From Bacteroidota bacterium (GTDB taxonomy: Bacteria; Bacteroidota; Bacteroidia; JABDFU01): DNA of 35,697 bases. Positions 9,120 to 35,697 of this stretch are shown piece by piece (positions within the stretch are counted from its first letter, which is position 1; each line of letters begins with the position of its first letter). The notes beneath the pieces are model-generated. The model ran no database searches. It was not told where the DNA came from and saw nothing but the letters and a program-made list of their open reading frames with translations. Both the position numbers and the translations under genes were made by a program. The stretch lies in the NCBI GenBank assembly GCA_016183775.1, contig JACPDY010000103.1, positions 1-35,697 of the forward strand. The letters are read 5' to 3'.

Positions 9120-11762
9120 TTATATATCCAACTTTGTCTGCTTAGGAGGCTTCCCACCCTTTCCTTTTTTCTTTACAGTTTTAGAAGGTAATTCAGCAAC
9201 TTTTTTAGGCTCAGCTTTTACAGGAGGTGCGGCAGCAACTTTAGCCGGTTCTTCAACAGGTGGCGGTGCAAGAGGTTTCTCTTTTAACTCCAGCAAGTTA
9301 ACTTCCTTCACTTTATGGTCAGTAAGTTTATTTCCTTTTGCTTTGAGACCTTTTATTTCAATGAACTCAATGAGGTTTATTTTCTTATTTTTTATTTCCT
9401 TTTTGGAGAAGATGATATCGACTACTGGTGCAGCCTGTGTAGTTGCGACTTCGAGCACTGAACCTTCGGCCTCGCTGATAAACAAAACTTTTTTATCAGT
9501 AGGTTCAACAACAAAACGTTTTACATAATACTGTTTATCCTTTCCATCATAATAAATAGCAGATACCGGTTTTGCCGGATCAAATTTTTCGATCAAAATA
9601 ATATCTTCATCAAAGTGAGTCGACAGATCGAATGAATACAGTTTATAATGCCCGCTTTGGGTAATACCTAAAATTTTATCCTCACCCGAAAACTCGCCGA
9701 GATAAGTGCCATACTCGGTATTATTAATGCGGTGAACAGTATCGTCAAACCATATTCTCTCTGTATGCGCTATCCCCGCCCCTTTCGATTTCTGAACGAT
9801 CTTTTTCACAGGATATTTGGTAACCACATTACCCATTGTTCCCCTCGCTTTTATCGCGAGGTCGGCGAAGTTTACATCAAACTCCAGTTTCCTCAAACCA
9901 GGCAATGGTTTCAGATGAACGGTAACAACCTCCGACTCACCATTAGGGTTTGCCGTAAAATACAACACTTGTGACTCGGGGGTTTCCCTGGTCAGATCGT
10001 ATTCCTTATCACGCGTTACACCTGTTACAGGAAAACGCTTCATCATAGCAGCACCCTTTTTACCATCACGGTATATCATGTTGTAAATGGTGCGTTCGTC
10101 ATTCTTTTTGAACACATTTACATATATAATATCCTTACCCATAAAGGCCTTGTCGGCAACTTTTACCACTTTCATTTTGCCTTCCCTCTCCGAACATTCG
10201 CAAACAAATTCATCCTTCTTAAGTCCATAGCCTATAAAGCCTTCTTCCCTGTTCACATACAGCTTTTGATTGGCAACAACTACATGGCGAACCTCGATAT
10301 TCTCGAATGAGCGTATCTCGGTTTTGCGCTCACGGCCTGCACCATATTTCTTCTTCAGGTTCATAAAATATTCAACCGCGAATTCAGTAAGGTTTGCCAA
10401 GTGGTGTTTTACCTCATCGATCCTTTTCTCGAGGTCTTTCATCACATCATCCGCTTTAATACTGTCAAAACGGGTGATACGGATCATCGGGATCCTGGTC
10501 AAACGCTCAAGGTCCTCATCATTGATCGCACGGTTCAGCTTGCGCTTATGGGGCTTAAAAGATTCGTATAAATATTTGTATAAATTCTCTTTATCGTTGT
10601 ACTTTTTGAAATCGATATACATCTCTTCCTTGATGAATATTTTTTCCAGTGAAGAAAAATGCCATTGTTCTTTAAGCTCTTCAAGTTCAATTTCCAGCTC
10701 CCGCTTTAACAGCTCCAGCGTTTGATGTGTGGAAATTTTCAGCATTTCGTTCACCCCGACAAAGCGCGGCTTGTCGTTCTCAATTATACAGGCATTTGGT
10801 GATATGGATATCTCACAATCCGTAAAGGCGTACAACGCGTCGATTGTCTTATCCGGCGACACATCAGGTGCCAGATGTATCAACACCTCAACATTCTCTG
10901 ATGTATTGTCTTCAACCCTTTTTATTTTTATTTTTCCTTTGTCGTTAGCAGAAAGAATCGAATCGATCAGAGACTGCGTTGTTGTCCCAAAAGGTAGTTC
11001 CGAAACAATAAGCGTCTTTTTATTCAGCTGCGATATTTTGGCACGAACACGTACCCTTGCCCCACGCAAACCCTCGCTGTAATTACTAAAATCAGCGGAA
11101 CCGCCTGTAGGAAAATCAGGCATGATATCTGTTTTTCGGCCGCGTAAGACCTTTATCGATGCATCGATAAGTTCATTAAAATTATGTGGCAAAATTTTGC
11201 AGGCGAGACCAACCGCAATACCTTCAACACCTTGCGCCAACAGCAAAGGAAATTTCATCGGTAATGTTTCCGGCTCTTTATTCCGACCGTCATAACTGGC
11301 TAACCAAGTAGTCGTTTTGGGATTGAAGGCCACTTCCAGCGCGAACTTCGACAAACGTGCTTCAATATAACGGGGAGCTGCAGCAAAGTCACCTGTCAAT
11401 ATATTTCCCCAGTTACCTTGTGTATCAATAAGCAGATCTTTCTGTCCTAACTGCACCATCGCATCACCAATTGAGGCGTCACCATGCGGATGGTATTTCA
11501 TAGTGTTACCTATAACATTCGCCACTTTATTGTAACGCCCGTCTTCCATTTCCCACATGGAGTGCATGATACGACGCTGCACGGGTTTTAAGCCATCTTC
11601 AATAGCAGGAACAGCCCGTTCAAGAATTACATATGATGCATAATCCAGAAACCAATTCTGGTACATGCCAGAAACAAGGATTACATTATGATCGTTGCCA
11701 CCGGCGTTATTAGTGTTTTCGGGTGTACTTGCTGAATTGTCTGAATCTTTGATCTTGGCCAT
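9120..11762 (-). CDS. parC: DNA topoisomerase IV subunit A
   Basis: The 880-residue DNA-cleaving subunit of topoisomerase IV, which decatenates and relaxes DNA with ParE. Evidence: the winged-helix region ILERAVPAIEDGLKPVQRRI, the QRDR HPHGDASIGDAM (residues 91-102), and the catalytic Arg131-Tyr132 in AAPRYIEARL. A beta-pinwheel C-terminal region follows (from ~residue 500), then a Pro/Ala/Lys-rich tail that is probably disordered. The position matching E. coli GyrA Ser83 is Ala96, while the Asp87 equivalent (Asp100) is kept. No GyrA box is visible, and with the adjacent parE this favours ParC. It is third in a same-strand series parE, repeat array, IS200-like gene, parC; the gap to the transposase stop is 43 bp. 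Confidence 0.94.
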   Translation of the reverse strand: MAKIKDSDNSASTPENTNNAGGNDHNVILVSGMYQNWFLDYASYVILERAVPAIEDGLKPVQRRIMHSMWEMEDGRYNKVANVIGNTMKYHPHGDASIGDAMVQLGQKDLLIDTQGNWGNILTGDFAAAPRYIEARLSKFALEVAFNPKTTTWLASYDGRNKEPETLPMKFPLLLAQGVEGIAVGLACKILPHNFNELIDASIKVLRGRKTDIMPDFPTGGSADFSNYSEGLRGARVRVRAKISQLNKKTLIVSELPFGTTTQSLIDSILSANDKGKIKIKRVEDNTSENVEVLIHLAPDVSPDKTIDALYAFTDCEISISPNACIIENDKPRFVGVNEMLKISTHQTLELLKRELEIELEELKEQWHFSSLEKIFIKEEMYIDFKKYNDKENLYKYLYESFKPHKRKLNRAINDEDLERLTRIPMIRITRFDSIKADDVMKDLEKRIDEVKHHLANLTEFAVEYFMNLKKKYGAGRERKTEIRSFENIEVRHVVVANQKLYVNREEGFIGYGLKKDEFVCECSEREGKMKVVKVADKAFMGKDIIYVNVFKKNDERTIYNMIYRDGKKGAAMMKRFPVTGVTRDKEYDLTRETPESQVLYFTANPNGESEVVTVHLKPLPGLRKLEFDVNFADLAIKARGTMGNVVTKYPVKKIVQKSKGAGIAHTERIWFDDTVHRINNTEYGTYLGEFSGEDKILGITQSGHYKLYSFDLSTHFDEDIILIEKFDPAKPVSAIYYDGKDKQYYVKRFVVEPTDKKVLFISEAEGSVLEVATTQAAPVVDIIFSKKEIKNKKINLIEFIEIKGLKAKGNKLTDHKVKEVNLLELKEKPLAPPPVEEPAKVAAAPPVKAEPKKVAELPSKTVKKKGKGGKPPKQTKLDI

Positions 11763-11805
11763 AAAAGTTATTCTATTTCAAGGTTCTGAAACCTAATATT
11801 AGTAT

Positions 11806-12291
11806 TTATAATTCAACGACATTAGAGTTATAATCCAACCAATCAAACAGGTATTCGTCTTTATATTTAATTTCATTTTTATTTAATAAATCAAGGTATT
11901 CATCTCTGAAACTTTTTTGGGCATGATGCACTTCCTGATTTCTAATATATTCAACTACATCCGGCAATTGTGATTTCGAATATGAAAATGCTCCAAATCC
12001 CTCCTGCCACTGAAATTTACCCGTTAACTGTGAATTTGTATTAATAAATTTTGTTGAATGCTCTTTTATTTCACGCACAAGAGATGATATTGCTATGCCA
12101 GGGCTGATACTAACTAAAATATGTAGGTGATCAGGCATTCCATTTATTATATATAATTTCTGTTTTTGATTTTGAACAATTCCTGAAATGTATTTGTACA
12201 ATGTCACCTTTATACTTTCTGTTATAAGACTGTGTTTACCCTTAACAGCAAAAACAAGCTGGATATATATTTGAGAATAGGTATCGGCCAT
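11806..12291 (-). CDS. IS200/REP-associated-type HUH (Y1) transposase
   Basis: A 161-residue single-domain Y1 transposase. It has the HUH motif as H55-L-H57 in GMPDHLHILVSI and the catalytic Tyr115 in VVEYIRNQEVHH, with Gln119 at the position that helps bind metal. These enzymes nick single-stranded DNA at hairpins through a 5' phosphotyrosine. The intact frame and motifs suggest an active enzyme. Its start lies 47 bp from a tandem array of imperfect palindromes (12339-12786), the arrangement of REP-associated transposases (RAYT/TnpA_REP), which act on REP hairpins and are usually single-copy rather than mobile as an IS. No accessory tnpB and no clear IS end on the parC side were seen. It sits between parE and parC on the same strand and may be co-transcribed with them. 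Confidence 0.88.
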   Translation of the reverse strand: MADTYSQIYIQLVFAVKGKHSLITESIKVTLYKYISGIVQNQKQKLYIINGMPDHLHILVSISPGIAISSLVREIKEHSTKFINTNSQLTGKFQWQEGFGAFSYSKSQLPDVVEYIRNQEVHHAQKSFRDEYLDLLNKNEIKYKDEYLFDWLDYNSNVVEL

Positions 12292-12338
12292 GGCCTATGT
12301 GATTTATCCTGATATTAAATTTTATTTAATCAATTATG

Positions 12339-12786
12339 TTTGGCTCCTCCGGAGCCAAAATTTAAAATCCATTTTATTTCTATTAATATTTCGCTCCCCT
12401 GGAGCGGCGCTTTACTTTTCATACAACTCCCCCTTCCCTTGAGCGATCTTTAACCTTACCATTATGAGGCCCTGGAAAAGCCAAAATTTAAAATCCATTT
12501 TAGTTCTATTAATAATTTCACTCCTCTGGAGCGATGCTTTTATTTTTCATGAAACTCTCCATTCCCTTGAACAATCCTTAACCTTACCATTATGGGGCCC
12601 CTGAAGAGCCAAAATTCAAAATCCATTTTACTTCCATTAATATTTCACTCCTCTGGAGCGACGCTTTACTTTCCATGTAACTCCCATTCCCTTGAGCGAT
12701 CTTTAACCTTGCAATTATGGGGCTCCGGAGGAGCCAAACATTAATAGAAATAAATCACCATTCTCTATCCCGCTCCTGAGGAGTGG
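12339..12786. repeat. REP/BIME-like tandem array of palindromes, period about 126 bp
   Basis: Three full direct repeats and a fourth partial copy start at 12342, 12468, 12596 and 12721 (periods 126, 128, 125). Each full unit has two hairpins. Palindrome A is GGCTCC-N3-GGAGCC: perfect at 12339-12359 with 9-bp arms including flanking TTT/AAA, decayed at 12468-12482 and 12596-12610, and GGCTCCGGAGGAGCC at 12721-12735. Palindrome B is CGCTCC-N3-GGAGCG: perfect at 12392-12406, with one arm mismatch in units 2 and 3. Each palindrome A is preceded by ATTATG (12333, 12461, 12589, 12714). After the fourth A the spacer is inverted (ATTAATAGAAATAAAT is the reverse complement of the unit-1 spacer) and ends in a B-type hairpin at 12770-12786. 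No open frame crosses the region. Confidence 0.9.
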
Positions 12787-12792
12787 AACATT

Positions 12793-14658
12793 TTATTCTG
12801 CTTTTGATACCTCTTCACCTTCCACTAGATCCTTTTCAATCTTCAAATTATTAATAATAAAATCCTGACGCTCCTGCGTATTTTTACCCATGTAATAACT
12901 TAAAATATCTGTAATAGATTTGCCGCCACCAATGATGACCGGTTCAATACGCATATCTTTCCCAATAAAATTCTTGAACTCATCAGGCGATATCTCTCCC
13001 AAACCTTTGAATCGAGTTATCTCCGGCTTACCTCCGAGTTTGATCATTGCTTCCCTCCTCGCCTCTTCCGAATAACAATATATGGTTTCCTTTTTGTTAC
13101 GTACACGGAAAAGAGGTGTTTGAAGAATATATACGTGTCCGTTCTTAACAAGATCAGGAAAAAACTGAAGGAAGAAGGTAAGCAACAGTAAACGAATGTG
13201 CATACCATCCACATCAGCATCGGTAGCGACTACCACCTGGTTATAACGCAACTCATCCAGGTTATCTTCTATATTCAACGCTGCCTGCAGAAGATTAAAT
13301 TCTTCATTTTCGTATACTACTTTTTTAGTTAGTCCAAACGCATTAAGCGGTTTTCCTTTAAGACTGAAGACTGCTTGTGTATTTACATCACGTACTTTGG
13401 TAATGGAGCCGCTGGCAGAATCTCCCTCACAAATAAATAAAGTTGTTTCAAGCCTGCGATCGTCATTTGTGTTATAATGACTCCGGCAATCTCGTAGCTT
13501 ACGGTTATGTAAACTTGCTTTTTTGGCCCGTTCACGTGCCAATTTTTGTATACCCGAAAGTTCTTTGCGTTCCTTTTCCGATTGCTGGATCTTCTTAAGT
13601 AATTCTTCAGCAGTAGCCGGATTTTTATGTAAATAATTATCGAGAGCTTCTTTAACAAAGTCACCAATAAAAGTCTTCATACTTTTCCCGCCCGGAGCAA
13701 TTTCCTGGGAACCCAGTTTTGTTTTGGTTTGCGATTCAAACACGGGTTCTTGTACCTTAACACTAATGGCAGCCACAATAGAAGTACGTATATCAACAAA
13801 TTCAAATTCCTTTTTATAAAACTCACGTATAGTTTTAACTACGGCTTCACGGAACGCAGCCTGGTGTGTGCCGCCCTGTGTTGTATGTTGTCCGTTAACA
13901 AACGAATAATACTCCTCACCATACTGTGCTTCGGCATGCGTCATGGCAATTTCAATATCATCACCTTTCAGGTGAATGATGGGATAAAGTATCGGTCCGG
14001 TAAGATTACGCTCCAATAAATCCTTCAATCCATTTTGCGAAACAAATTCCTGACCATTATAGTTAAGCTTTAACCCCGTATTGAGATACGCGTAATTCCA
14101 GCACATACGCTCAATGTACTCATGTATAAAATGGTATTTGCCGAATAATTTTTCGTCGGGTGTGAATGTTACAATTGTGCCGGATTGCAAGTCACACTCT
14201 TTTAATTTAGCGTCTTTGGTAATTACCCCGCGTTCAAACTCCGCCACTTTCGTTTTGCCTTCACGTATTGATTGAATAGTAAAATGCGAAGCCAATGCAT
14301 TCACGGCTTTGGTACCCACACCATTCAGGCCGACTGACTTTTTAAATGCTTCCGAATCGTATTTTGCACCGGTATTGATCTTGGAAACACAATCAATCAC
14401 CTTACCTAATGGAATACCACGGCCATAATCGCGTACCGTAACCGATTTATCACGAATGGTGATATCAATATTTTTACCATATCCCATTACGTGTTCATCA
14501 ATACAGTTGTCAATGGTTTCTTTTATTAAAATGTAAATACCATCATCCTGAGATGAACCATCACCCAATTTACCGATATACATACCTGGACGTAAACGGA
14601 TGTGTTCTTTCCAGTCGAGGGATTTTATACTGTCTTCGTTATATTTTGGTTCTGCCAT
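12793..14658 (-). CDS. parE: DNA topoisomerase IV subunit B
   Basis: The 621-residue ATPase subunit of topoisomerase IV. The GHKL ATPase motifs are present: [15 protein letters not shown] with Glu47 and Asn51, DYGRGIPL, and [14 protein letters not shown] for the ATP lid. The transducer domain follows ([10 protein letters not shown] with the switch lysines). The TOPRIM domain has [23 protein letters not shown] for Mg2+ binding, and FKGLGEI near the C-terminus. The length, about 620 residues without the GyrB insert, fits ParE. It starts at ATG 14656-14658, 15 bp after the toxin gene stop, so it may be co-transcribed with the toxin-antitoxin pair. Downstream it is separated from parC by the repeat array and transposase. 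Confidence 0.95.
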
Positions 14659-14673
14659 TTTGGGAATTAAAAA

Positions 14674-15090
14674 TTAGTTAATGGTTTTTAAATAATCTAT
14701 TACAGTCATTGCGGGAATTGATGATCGCCCAAACCCTTTCCGATCACGCGTAACAATAGCCTTTATGTTTTTAATTTTTAAAGCACATTCGTGTTGCAAT
14801 GCGTCTTCAAAATCATCCAACTTAGAATCTACTGCATTGATAACAGACTTTGCGTCAAGATCAACTATAGTAATATATTTAATAAAACTCCTCAGCGACT
14901 TGATCAACTCCGCATGTCCGATCTTTTTCCGTAGAATGTAATAAATATTATCGAAGCTTGCTGCAGATACATACAACTCCACTCTTTTTTCATTGGCCAA
15001 CAAAAAAAGGTCTTCGGCCGAATCAGCAAAAGGAATACGATTCCCCAAATAATCAATTACAACATTTGTATCAACAAAAATTTTATCCAA
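14674..15090 (-). CDS. PIN-domain ribonuclease toxin (VapC-like)
   Basis: A 138-residue PIN domain. The acidic residues expected at the Mg2+ site are visible: Asp7 in FVDTNVVIDYL, Asp96 in DDFEDALQ, and Asp116 in AIVTRDRKGF. PIN toxins cleave specific RNAs, often tRNAs or rRNA; the target cannot be read from the sequence. The start is TTG at 15088-15090. In this frame a TGA lies three codons upstream and there is no ATG before the conserved start of the domain. The TTG lies one base after the antitoxin stop, so translation is probably coupled to the antitoxin. The stop is 15 bp before parE. Confidence 0.88.
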   Translation of the reverse strand: MDKIFVDTNVVIDYLGNRIPFADSAEDLFLLANEKRVELYVSAASFDNIYYILRKKIGHAELIKSLRSFIKYITIVDLDAKSVINAVDSKLDDFEDALQHECALKIKNIKAIVTRDRKGFGRSSIPAMTVIDYLKTIN

Positions 15091-15091
15091 T

Positions 15092-15367
15092 CTATTTCAG
15101 TTTATTGTATTTCTCCCACATTGCTTTTTGAAGTTCCTTTTTATAATCAAAATCATCCGGCAATTGTACTATTCCTCTTAACTTTTGTAACTCCGACTTA
15201 TACTTCACCTTGGGTTCCGCCACAGTTGAGGTGTCCTCATCTCTTGCAATGAGCAATTTCAAATAATTCTCAACCAATTGAGAAATACTGGTATCTGTCT
15301 TCTTTGCATATTTCCGTGCCTTTTCAATCACTGATTTACTGAGGCTCAATGTTAGCTTCGTGTTCAT
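15092..15367 (-). CDS. DUF6364-type ribbon-helix-helix antitoxin
   Basis: A 91-residue protein opening with a beta strand and two helices (TKLTLSLSKSVIEKARKYAK, then TSISQLVENYLKLL), the pattern of a ribbon-helix-helix DNA-binding domain. The charged C-terminal tail (LRGIVQLPDDFDYKKELQKA) is suited to wrapping the toxin. It is the first gene of the pair and overlaps the toxin region tightly. Antitoxins of this type neutralise the PIN protein and repress their own promoter. An ACGTAT/ATACGT inverted repeat just upstream (15369-15400) is a candidate operator. Assignment to DUF6364 is from sequence resemblance remembered for that family, not from a search. Confidence 0.82.
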   Translation of the reverse strand: MNTKLTLSLSKSVIEKARKYAKKTDTSISQLVENYLKLLIARDEDTSTVAEPKVKYKSELQKLRGIVQLPDDFDYKKELQKAMWEKYNKLK

Positions 15368-32796: not shown

Positions 32797-35697
32797 ATGG
32801 ACACAATAACTAAACTACTACAAAACATAAAAGTCAAGCAAGTTCTTTTTTCGCTGGCTTTCGCATTTATAGGAGTAAGTAAAGTGTTAGCCGCAGTAAC
32901 TGTTACCGTACCATCACTAACGATAAATACGTGTTCTATTTATCCTACAAGTTATAACGCACTAGGAAATATCGTAATAACAGAAAATGCGAAAGGTGAT
33001 TTCGCCGTCGGTTCACCTCTGACTCTTATACTTACCGCCCCTGCCAACTTTCAATTTCTGGCAGATTCAGGAAGCACCGCAATATCAGCAGGTGGCAACT
33101 TGTCGATCGATTCCACTGTTGTTACTTCAACCACAATCACCGTATATTATAATTGCGTAAACACCAACAAGTTTGATGTAATGACAATAAGTGGTATTAT
33201 GGTAAGAGGGATTACCGGTACCAGTTCCGCTAACGCAACCCGAACAGGTGGTTCGGGAACTATAAGCGGCCTTATAGCCGGAACCGCTGTTGCCTCATTA
33301 ACTTCGGCTAACGTTATTACACCTGTTGGTGGAAGTGCTGTTTCGTCAGTTACAAACCCTGTTTGTAATAACACAGCAACTACATTGTCCCTTTCTGGCA
33401 GCACTGATGCTACTTCATACCAATGGCAATCCTCAAACGATGATATAACCTTTTCGGATATTGTCGGAGCCACCTCTTCAACCTATATATATACTCCTGC
33501 CGCCACTTCCAATAAGTATTTCAGATGCATACTAACATGTACGGGCTCAGCTAATAGCGCCTCTGTTCTTGTTACAAGCCAGGCTTGCGATTGTACTCTT
33601 GGATGTACGGCAACAGCATACGATGTAAACCTTTCTGCCAGCCCGGAAAACACGTATACACTTTCTGACAAAAGAAACGGAGATTGTTGCAGCGGAACCA
33701 ACTGTATTCGTTTTAATGTTATTGTTAGCCCTTTAGCGGATGAGGTTTCATTTGATGTGCAGCGTCCATCCCCAAGTGGGTCAGCGTATTATCAGGTGGA
33801 TTGCGGACCATCAACTTCTATCGGAACCCCTCTTTGTATTAATGGTGTTACTACTTTTTGTATAACTTACTGCAAGCCGGGGGGTGATTCACCTGACTAT
33901 ATTATTTCATCAAGTCGTAAAGTCAACGGCTCTCCGGATATTACACTTCGTCCGGGATGCTCAAAGATCATGACTATCTCCGGTCTTAATGAAGCCGGGA
34001 TCACATGGAAGTCCGTTTCACCAGGCGCCATTGGTGACTACAATTCATATTTGAGTTGCATAGCCGGCTGTGATACTACAACTGTAACTGCCCCTGCCTC
34101 AGGTGCTCCCGCCTCAGTAAAATATGTCTCAAGCGGAACCGCAGCTGGCTGTACCTCTGGAACATCAACAGATACTGTTACAGTTACTTTTGTTTCTGAA
34201 TTAGCACCCTCAATTGCTCCGGCAAATCCTGCTATTTGTTTTGGTAGTTTAGGTGTTGGTTTAACTGGCAGCGCAATGGGCGGAGTACTCCCATACACGT
34301 ATTCATGGAATACGGGAGAAACAACATCTGTTATTGTTGCGGCGGCAGCAGGAACATATACATTAAGTGTATCAGACGCAACAGGATGCCCTCCCGTTAC
34401 AACAACCGTAACCGTTGTTGCACATTCCGGACCTATTACTGCAGATGCCGGCGCTGATCAAAGTGTCTGTTCTTCCAGTCCGGCTGTTACACTTGCTGGT
34501 ATTATCAGTCAGGCTACCGGAGGGACCTGGTCTGGCGGCAGTGGCACTTATGTACCCGATGCAAATACTTTAAACGCTACTTATACTCCTTCCGCAGCTG
34601 AACTTCTTGCCGGAACAGTTACTTTAACCCTTACATCAACAGGTAATGGTGGTTGTACGGGAGATGATGATGTAATGATTATTACAATCAACCAAACTCC
34701 AACTGCTAGTGCAGGTGGTGATCAAACTATTTGCTCGGACGCTAGTGCTAGTTTGGCTGGAACTATTGGTGGTGGAGCTTCAGGAGGAACATGGACAAGT
34801 AGCGGCACAGGAACTTTTGACGATGCTAATTCTTTAACAGCTGTATACTCACCAAGTGCCGCTGATATCTTAGGAGGAACAATTACTTTAACCCTTACGT
34901 CCACTGGTAACGGAGCATGTGCTGCGGCTTCCGATGCTATGGTGCTTACCATTAACCCTGTCGCTACAGCAAGTGCAGGGGCCGATGCGACCATCTGTTC
35001 CGGTTCAACCTATATCTTATCAGGTAGCCGCGGCGGAAGCGCTGCTTCTTCCACATGGACTTCTTCCGGCACGGGTACATTTGATAATGCAGCTCTTGTT
35101 GCTGCTACTTATACTCCAAGTGCTGCTGACATTACTGCAGGAACTGTTACGTTAACCATCACCACCAACGATCCGGCAGGTCCTTGCCCGGCGGCTTCCG
35201 ATGCGATGGTGCTTACCATTAACCCTGTTGCTACGGCAAGTGCAGGGGCCGATGCGACCATTTGTTCGGGTTCAACCTATGTCTTATCAGGTAGCCGCGG
35301 CGGAGGTGCAACTTCTTCTACCTGGACATCTTCCGGCACAGGTACATTTGATGATGCAAGTATTGTTGGCGCTACTTATGCCCCAAGTGCTGCCGACATT
35401 ACTGCAGGAACTGTTACGTTAACTATAACCACCAACGACCCGGTGGGTCCTTGTCCGGCGGCTTCCGATGCGATGGTGCTTACCATTAACCCTGTTGCTA
35501 CAGCAAGTGCAGGGGCAGATGCGACTATCTGTTCGGGCTCGACTTACACTCTTTCCGGTTCAAGAGGCGGATCTGCCGCCTCTTCCACATGGACTTCTTC
35601 CGGCACAGGTACATTTGATGATGCAAGTATTGTTGGTGCTACTTATACCCCAAGTGCTGCTGATATTACTGCAGGAACTGTTACGTTAACCATCACC
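32797..35697 (+). CDS. Giant repetitive secreted adhesin-like protein (3' end outside window)
   Basis: The frame starts at ATG 32797 and stays open for 967 codons to the window end. The N-terminus has a signal peptide (VLFSLAFAFIGVSKVLA). Residues ~36-165 form a Thr/Ser-rich beta region, followed by an Ig-like segment (SYQWQSSNDDITFSDI), a Cys-rich stretch (about 265-420) with many paired cysteines, and a SprB-type segment (PYTYSWNTGETTS). From residue ~549 tandem ~88-89-residue repeats begin: units with A-x-A-G-A/G-D-x-x-x-C at nt 34441, 34705, 34969, 35236 and 35503 (spacing 264, 264, 267, 267). Each repeat contains TWTSSGTGTFD, PSAADI and TVTLT. The last three are nearly identical in DNA. 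A T9SS-exported surface adhesin or gliding-type protein is likely; the expected C-terminal sorting domain is beyond the window. Confidence 0.85.
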   Translation, partial: MDTITKLLQNIKVKQVLFSLAFAFIGVSKVLAAVTVTVPSLTINTCSIYPTSYNALGNIVITENAKGDFAVGSPLTLILTAPANFQFLADSGSTAISAGGNLSIDSTVVTSTTITVYYNCVNTNKFDVMTISGIMVRGITGTSSANATRTGGSGTISGLIAGTAVASLTSANVITPVGGSAVSSVTNPVCNNTATTLSLSGSTDATSYQWQSSNDDITFSDIVGATSSTYIYTPAATSNKYFRCILTCTGSANSASVLVTSQACDCTLGCTATAYDVNLSASPENTYTLSDKRNGDCCSGTNCIRFNVIVSPLADEVSFDVQRPSPSGSAYYQVDCGPSTSIGTPLCINGVTTFCITYCKPGGDSPDYIISSSRKVNGSPDITLRPGCSKIMTISGLNEAGITWKSVSPGAIGDYNSYLSCIAGCDTTTVTAPASGAPASVKYVSSGTAAGCTSGTSTDTVTVTFVSELAPSIAPANPAICFGSLGVGLTGSAMGGVLPYTYSWNTGETTSVIVAAAAGTYTLSVSDATGCPPVTTTVTVVAHSGPITADAGADQSVCSSSPAVTLAGIISQATGGTWSGGSGTYVPDANTLNATYTPSAAELLAGTVTLTLTSTGNGGCTGDDDVMIITINQTPTASAGGDQTICSDASASLAGTIGGGASGGTWTSSGTGTFDDANSLTAVYSPSAADILGGTITLTLTSTGNGACAAASDAMVLTINPVATASAGADATICSGSTYILSGSRGGSAASSTWTSSGTGTFDNAALVAATYTPSAADITAGTVTLTITTNDPAGPCPAASDAMVLTINPVATASAGADATICSGSTYVLSGSRGGGATSSTWTSSGTGTFDDASIVGATYAPSAADITAGTVTLTITTNDPVGPCPAASDAMVLTINPVATASAGADATICSGSTYTLSGSRGGSAASSTWTSSGTGTFDDASIVGATYTPSAADITAGTVTLTIT
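34439..35697 (+). repeat. Tandem 264-267-bp coding repeats in the adhesin
   Basis: Four complete units and a fifth cut by the window edge. The first two are diverged. The units starting near 34969, 35236 and 35503 are nearly identical, including synonymous positions (e.g. the ASDAMVLTINPVATASAGAD coding stretch), showing recent duplication or gene conversion. Confidence 0.9.

Follow-up and report, generated by a model that had tools for sequence, protein, structure and literature searches.

Hairpin units with a one-sided tail accompany TnpA proteins of subclass 1.2 in Bacteroidota and probably form a REP-like family

In the survey of Quentin et al. (2018), TnpA_Y1 subclass 1.2 is listed with 'no' under REP (PMC6006769). 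The automatic REP search used there asked for GT[AG]G at a distance of 0-2 nt from the hairpin foot and for stems of 7-20 nt (PMC6006769). Earlier work treated the subclass neither as an insertion sequence nor as REP-associated, which left it without a recognised substrate. In the REP of S. maltophilia the first loop base, a G, is essential for recognition (PMC8266576). DNA mini-hairpins capped by GNA triloops are known to be unusually stable (PMC6479982, PMC7205883). Our literature search, which covered open-access main texts, found no work tying subclass 1.2, or Bacteroidota palindromes such as those described below, to a Y1 protein. Here we describe a locus from a Bacteroidota bacterium (assembly GCA_016183775.1, contig JACPDY010000103.1); the whole analysed stretch of 35,697 nucleotides is called the window.

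The tnpA gene, its hairpin array and the parE-parC site

The features of the locus are collected in Table 1. The tnpA product matched Pfam Y1_Tnp with E = 2.2e-25 and carries the motifs DHLH, WQ and YIRNQEVHH. Residues H55, H57, W95, Q96, Y115, Q119, H122 and H123 were invariant across 46 relatives. This confirms the original prediction of a Y1 transposase with an intact HUH motif (H55-L-H57) and Tyr115. The best PDB matches of the AlphaFold model (pLDDT 88.8) were the TnpA proteins of ISDra2 and IS608, and the E. coli RAYT 4er8 matched more weakly. Eighty relatives were fetched, nearly all of them from Bacteroidota. WQ was present in 80/80 and Y---Q--HH in 79/80 of them; DH[IV]H was found in 64/80, and DHLH of the window protein is a conservative change. 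Judged by these motifs, the protein is a TnpA_Y1 of subclass 1.2 (Quentin et al. 2018), a subclass that groups with IS200 and not with the RAYTs. The layout had originally been described as that of RAYT/REP systems. The protein is not a class 2 RAYT: the motif Y---NP is not present in the protein, with Y---Q--HH in its place, there is no GTAG tag, and NCBIfam REP_Tyr_transpos scored 34.5, far under its cut-off of 80. NCBIfam transpos_IS200 was above cut-off. Phages yielded only distant Y1 proteins (25-26% identity). On plasmids one close homologue was found, in Bernardetia; the hairpins beside it differ in their arms but have a tail of similar sequence.

Table 1. Positions of the tnpA locus features in the window. 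R1 is a covariance model trained without the window's genus.
Feature	Position	Strand	Basis
Insert (tnpA + array) between parE (12793-14658) and parC (9120-11762)	11763..12792		comparison with relatives
tnpA, 161-aa HUH/Y1 ssDNA nuclease-transposase, subclass 1.2 type by motifs	11806..12291	-	Pfam Y1_Tnp, motifs, AlphaFold model
BIME-like array, tandem and inverted units	12342..12786		repeat analysis
Hairpin H1 GGCTCC-N3-GGAGCC, loop GGA, tail AAACAT on - strand	12342..12356	-	R1 24.4 bits
Hairpin H2 CGCTCC-N3-GGAGCG, tail AAATATTAATAGAAA on - strand	12392..12406	-	R1 33.6 bits, second best of the genome
Degenerate hairpin GGCCCTGGAAAAGCC, unit 2	12468..12482		repeat family D2
Hairpin H3, one G.T pair on - strand	12519..12533	-	R1 21.7 bits
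Degenerate hairpin GGCCCCTGAAGAGCC, unit 3	12596..12610		repeat family D2
Hairpin H4, loop AGA on - strand	12646..12660	-	R1 26.5 bits
Hairpin H5 GGCTCC-GGA-GGAGCC, tail AAACATTAATAGAAATA	12721..12735	+	R1 36.9 bits, best match of the genome
Hairpin H6 CGCTCC-TGA-GGAGTG	12771..12785	+	motif count; R1 9.7 bits only

In the array, three repeats of about 107-128 bp stand in tandem and an inverted copy forms the end. It flanks tnpA on a single side, upstream. Of its CTCC-N3-GGAG hairpins, six are retained and two have decayed. The predicted tandem units of ~126 bp were thus recovered, but not the two hairpins in every unit, since the second is degenerate in units 2 and 3. Hairpin H1 precedes the tnpA start codon by 50 bp (corrected from 47 bp) and folds as DNA with -7.7 kcal/mol; with DNA energies, the single strands of the hairpins fold as drawn. 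With at most one mismatch, SCTCCN3GGAGS was found 7 times in the window against 1.2 expected, and 0/100 shuffles were as high. Six of the seven matches were inside the array. A search of Rfam gave no match. The view that the palindrome differs from known REP sequences, and does so in Bacteroidota, holds, CTCC-N3-GGAG being unlike the GTAG type.

As stated originally, the insert splits the parE/parC pair. One flanking gene encodes a topoisomerase IV/gyrase subunit A (NF009397 above cut-off), the other a GyrB/ParE-type subunit B with all NCBIfam matches below cut-off. The sister species carries an 82% identical TnpA at the same place, and one distant genome (locus L030) is also occupied there. 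In five relatives (G004, G005, G010, G022 and G026) parE and parC are uninterrupted, with only a short junction. The insert is a lineage-specific insertion. In L030 (4360-5720) the order is parE, small ORF, hairpins, tnpA, hairpins, parC, and the first 21 nt of parC are repeated on both sides of the insert. Because of the extra ORF and the repeated parC start, this insert looks like a separate event. Target duplication is not known for IS200/IS605 elements. In the TnpA tree, the L030 protein falls into a supported clade with the window protein.

Elsewhere in the window, two small genes beside parE (14674-15367, - strand; PIN-like 138 aa and 91 aa) resemble a VapBC-type toxin-antitoxin pair, as far as the sequence tells. 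At 33147-34994 (- strand) several open frames of unusual composition, rich in alanine and valine, are possibly antisense to a repetitive gene that leaves the window.

Hairpins beside tnpA and their one-sided signature

The flanks of the 80 tnpA genes were searched for hairpins with a stem of at least 5 bp and a 3-nt loop within 450 bp. At least one was present at 78/80 loci and at least two at 70/80. As controls, the mirror image gave 5/80 and stretches 2.5 kb away gave 7/50. The REPtron-like layout in Bacteroidota, as proposed originally, is borne out, and the palindromes go with TnpA phylum-wide. For hairpins with a stem of at least 6 bp, a GC-rich top and a 3-nt loop, the first 300 bp after the gene gave 3.0 per kb and the last 300 bp before it 1.8 per kb. 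Beyond 1.5 kb their density was 0.01-0.10 per kb, and the mirror-image control gave 1 match in the same DNA. When only intergenic DNA was counted, 2.73 per kb near tnpA stood against 0.18 per kb far from it, a difference of about 15-fold. Many tnpA copies have hairpins on both sides, often shortly upstream of the start. The arms vary from locus to locus, and the hairpin core clusters on the TnpA tree (0/200 shuffles as low). No tnpB was seen beside tnpA. These results correct the published description of subclass 1.2 as lacking REP (PMC6006769) and do not exclude membership in it. The units match neither the tag nor the stem length of the earlier automatic search, which would have missed them.

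The likelihood-oriented units (n = 154) gave as consensus a hairpin with the 3' tail NNATRTTTATAGAAA. Orientation by the tail alone yielded 168 units in 65 loci. Of these 168 units, 89 have a GNA loop on the tail strand, most commonly GTA, and only 1 has the complementary TNC; most loops were GNA or AGA. Counting one loop per locus, GNA occurred 32 times and its complement 0 times. As a strand test, G.T and A.C mismatches showed no difference (19 v 14). This test brought to light a one-sided A.G mismatch at the hairpin foot, found in 25 loci, whereas the complementary C.T occurred in 1. Such a strand asymmetry would not be predicted by a symmetric function in double-stranded DNA, and the stability of GNA triloops agrees with single strands being recognised in folded form. 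GT[AG]G at the hairpin foot was not in the unit consensus, where NNATRTTTATAGAAA adjoins the hairpin. Since these 80 loci also supplied the tail pattern, more weight falls on the independent tests, those with R1 on held-out genomes and loci.

Dispersed units and their co-occurrence with tnpA

Across the entire 4.54-Mb genome, the two highest-ranking R1 matches were window units, H5 before H2, and the model also marked tnpA flanks in many further loci from genome searches. The model was trained on perfect stems, so that base-pair covariation would be circular and was not counted as evidence. Dispersal was measured by searches of genomes. At E <= 0.1, R1 matches were detected in 22/34 genomes with a homologue compared with 1/25 without (59 genomes, p = 1.6e-6), and in 18/19 genomes with a close TnpA homologue. 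The single hit among the 25 homologue-free genomes is below the 2.5 expected by chance. Ninety-two of the 123 matches were more than 1.5 kb from any tnpA homologue, at 64 sites. With these dispersed matches only, the counts were 18/34 versus 1/25 genomes (p = 5e-5). Outside the window's own genome both tandem 50-bp arrays and single units occur. In genome G007, contigs C34, C49 and C86 carry tandem unit arrays with a 50-bp period, and no tnpA was found on these contigs. Multi-copy loci of Lacihabitans, considered as recent transposition, were assembly variants of one locus.

The window's own genome (G000) contains five tnpA copies. Between the window protein and the remaining four, identity is 34-49%, and identical copies are absent. 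The copies are few and diverged, not the many identical ones of an insertion sequence. Four of the five adjoin hairpins of their own type: CTCC-N3-GGAG in the window, GGTGC-N3-GCACC at L002, AACCCC-GAA-GGGGTT at L004 and GGCT-AGCC at L005. The L005 hairpins fit the common unit poorly. L003 shares the hairpin style of L004. Its reading frame (C128, 1501-1944) has an in-frame TAA just after YVKNQ, inside Y---Q--HH; it is a decayed copy whose hairpins remain.

The window-type palindrome, for which a genome-wide search had been proposed, is not abundant. It is not confined to the window, either: one further cluster, on contig C148 between pyrF and a second ORF, is 73-77% alike to the array over stretches of 71-88 bp. 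All other SCTCCN3GGAGS matches, except two in this cluster, were tail-less and in coding-like sequence. The cluster is absent at the orthologous site of the sister species G002, a difference that could also be a deletion in G002. The L003/L004-type unit AACCCTGAAAGGGTTGAAT gave 22 matches at about 15 sites, mostly outside ORFs, versus 0 in the control.

In this genome the dispersed units are mostly inside elements with terminal inverted repeats. One MITE-like element of about 250 bp is bounded by GAGACTGTTTAAA / TTTAAACAGTCTC and encloses several GC hairpins (contigs C3, C35, C41, C46, C62, C71, C74, C77, C104, C106 and C139; e.g. L141, L142, L150). Since several copies are at contig ends, this element is likely to interrupt the assembly and to be more numerous than counted. 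Hairpins of the AACCCTGAAAGGGTTGAAT type are carried by another dispersed element, whose ends resemble CAATGTCATTAAGTT / AACTTAATGACATTG (C16, C68, C69, C79, C85, C91, C93, C99, C107 and C149; L165-L186). Transposases other than TnpA may move such elements together with the units they hold.

Proposed mechanism, rival explanations and known systems

We consider it probable that the locus is a REPtron-like pair in which a low-copy HUH/Y1 protein from the IS200 branch (subclass 1.2) is matched with a family of REP-like units of its own. A unit is a hairpin of 5-7 bp with a C-G closing pair and the AT-rich 3' tail NNATRTTTATAGAAA; on one strand its 3-nt loop is mostly GNA or AGA. When the locus becomes single-stranded, on a lagging or displaced strand, the tail-bearing strand would fold. 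By analogy with the HUH/Y1 family, a TnpA dimer would bind the mini-hairpin and Tyr115 would cut in or beside the tail. Strand transfer, as proposed for TnpAREP, could then insert units, alone, in pairs or as whole arrays, into other single-stranded DNA. Sometimes the gene may move along with its arrays, and the hairpin arms would diverge together with each TnpA copy. The observations themselves comprise the association with tnpA, the loop and tail asymmetry, dispersal, co-occurrence, and presence or absence at orthologous sites; binding, cutting site and strand transfer, and a gain for the host if there is any, are what we infer.

Four other explanations were weighed. Dispersed hairpins could be passengers of MITEs moved by other transposases, with TnpA only recognising or trimming them. 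The two elements with terminal inverted repeats (GAGACTGTTTAAA, CAATGTCATTAAGTT) carry hairpins as this would require, but tandem arrays and single units occur in other genomes, the C148 cluster is without such ends and the phylum-wide link to tnpA would be left unexplained; we regard this as unlikely, though the least so of the four. Slightly less credit is due to the idea that the locus is, or once was, a plain IS200/IS605-type insertion sequence, of which the hairpins form the left and right ends and no more. The nearest structures, the transpos_IS200 score, the hairpins on both sides of many copies and the lineage-specific insertion agree with it. Against it stand the diverged paralogs, the collapse of the Lacihabitans copies into one locus, the multi-unit arrays, the one-sided array of the window and the distance of most R1 matches from any tnpA.

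It is very improbable that the hairpins serve to terminate transcription or to stabilise mRNA and are near tnpA incidentally. Three terminator-like sites were seen in the region against 0.7 expected, and hairpins often precede the tnpA start; however, the conserved tail NNATRTTTATAGAAA is not a T run, the density falls away from tnpA even in intergenic DNA, and dispersed units are almost confined to tnpA-bearing genomes. Least credible of all is that the array regulates the topoisomerase operon as a BIME, binding gyrase, IHF or topoisomerase IV. The original prediction had suggested that the location may matter, and both the position between parE and parC and the tnpA of L030 in the same interval agree with this. 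Occupancy is sporadic, however, and lends the idea no support: five other relatives lack the insert and only 2/80, one of them the sister species, have tnpA there (p about 0.03 for a second chance hit, by a rough count).

With the REPtron-like pair preferred, the strand-specific hairpin-plus-tail signature provides subclass 1.2 with a candidate substrate and a cutting assay. A wider reading, on which we are evenly divided, is that the step to REP/RAYT-type systems was taken two or more times. The IS200 branch would then have given rise independently to a low-copy nuclease with phylum-wide REP units of its own (GNA-capped mini-hairpins, ATRTTTATAG tail, no GTAG), a system that shapes intergenic DNA of Bacteroidota. 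If true, there would be a second route from transposon to REP system, common intergenic palindromes of Bacteroidota would receive a name and a mover, and one could ask how general the REP recognition features (loop, foot mismatch, tag) are.

Among known systems, subclass 1.2 shares with our proteins Y---Q--HH, WQ, mostly DH[IV]H, a length of about 153 aa, low copy number and occurrence in Bacteroidota; it differs in the REP entry 'no', whereas nearly all members here are hairpin-flanked, and in DHLH of the window protein. IS200/IS605 elements (IS608, ISDra2) have the same HUH/Y1 fold and likely the same hairpin recognition, but here no tnpB is beside the gene, identical copies are absent and many hairpin units occur in place of one per end. 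The GTAG/CGTC-tagged palindromes (Di Nocera et al. 2013, PMC3733652) are likewise short, dispersed and intergenic, with another tag and loop, and the CGTC repeats have no linked transposase (PMC3733652). Class 2 systems (TnpAREP/RAYT with REP/BIME/REPIN) resemble ours in that the gene is low-copy and lies among hairpins of its own family, and in that the units are dispersed and occur in pairs or in tandem. The S. maltophilia REP likewise has a perfect stem and a 3-nt loop, of which the first G is essential there (PMC8266576). In contrast to class 2, the units described here have an AT-rich 3' tail instead of the GTAG tag, and their TnpA is without Y---NP.
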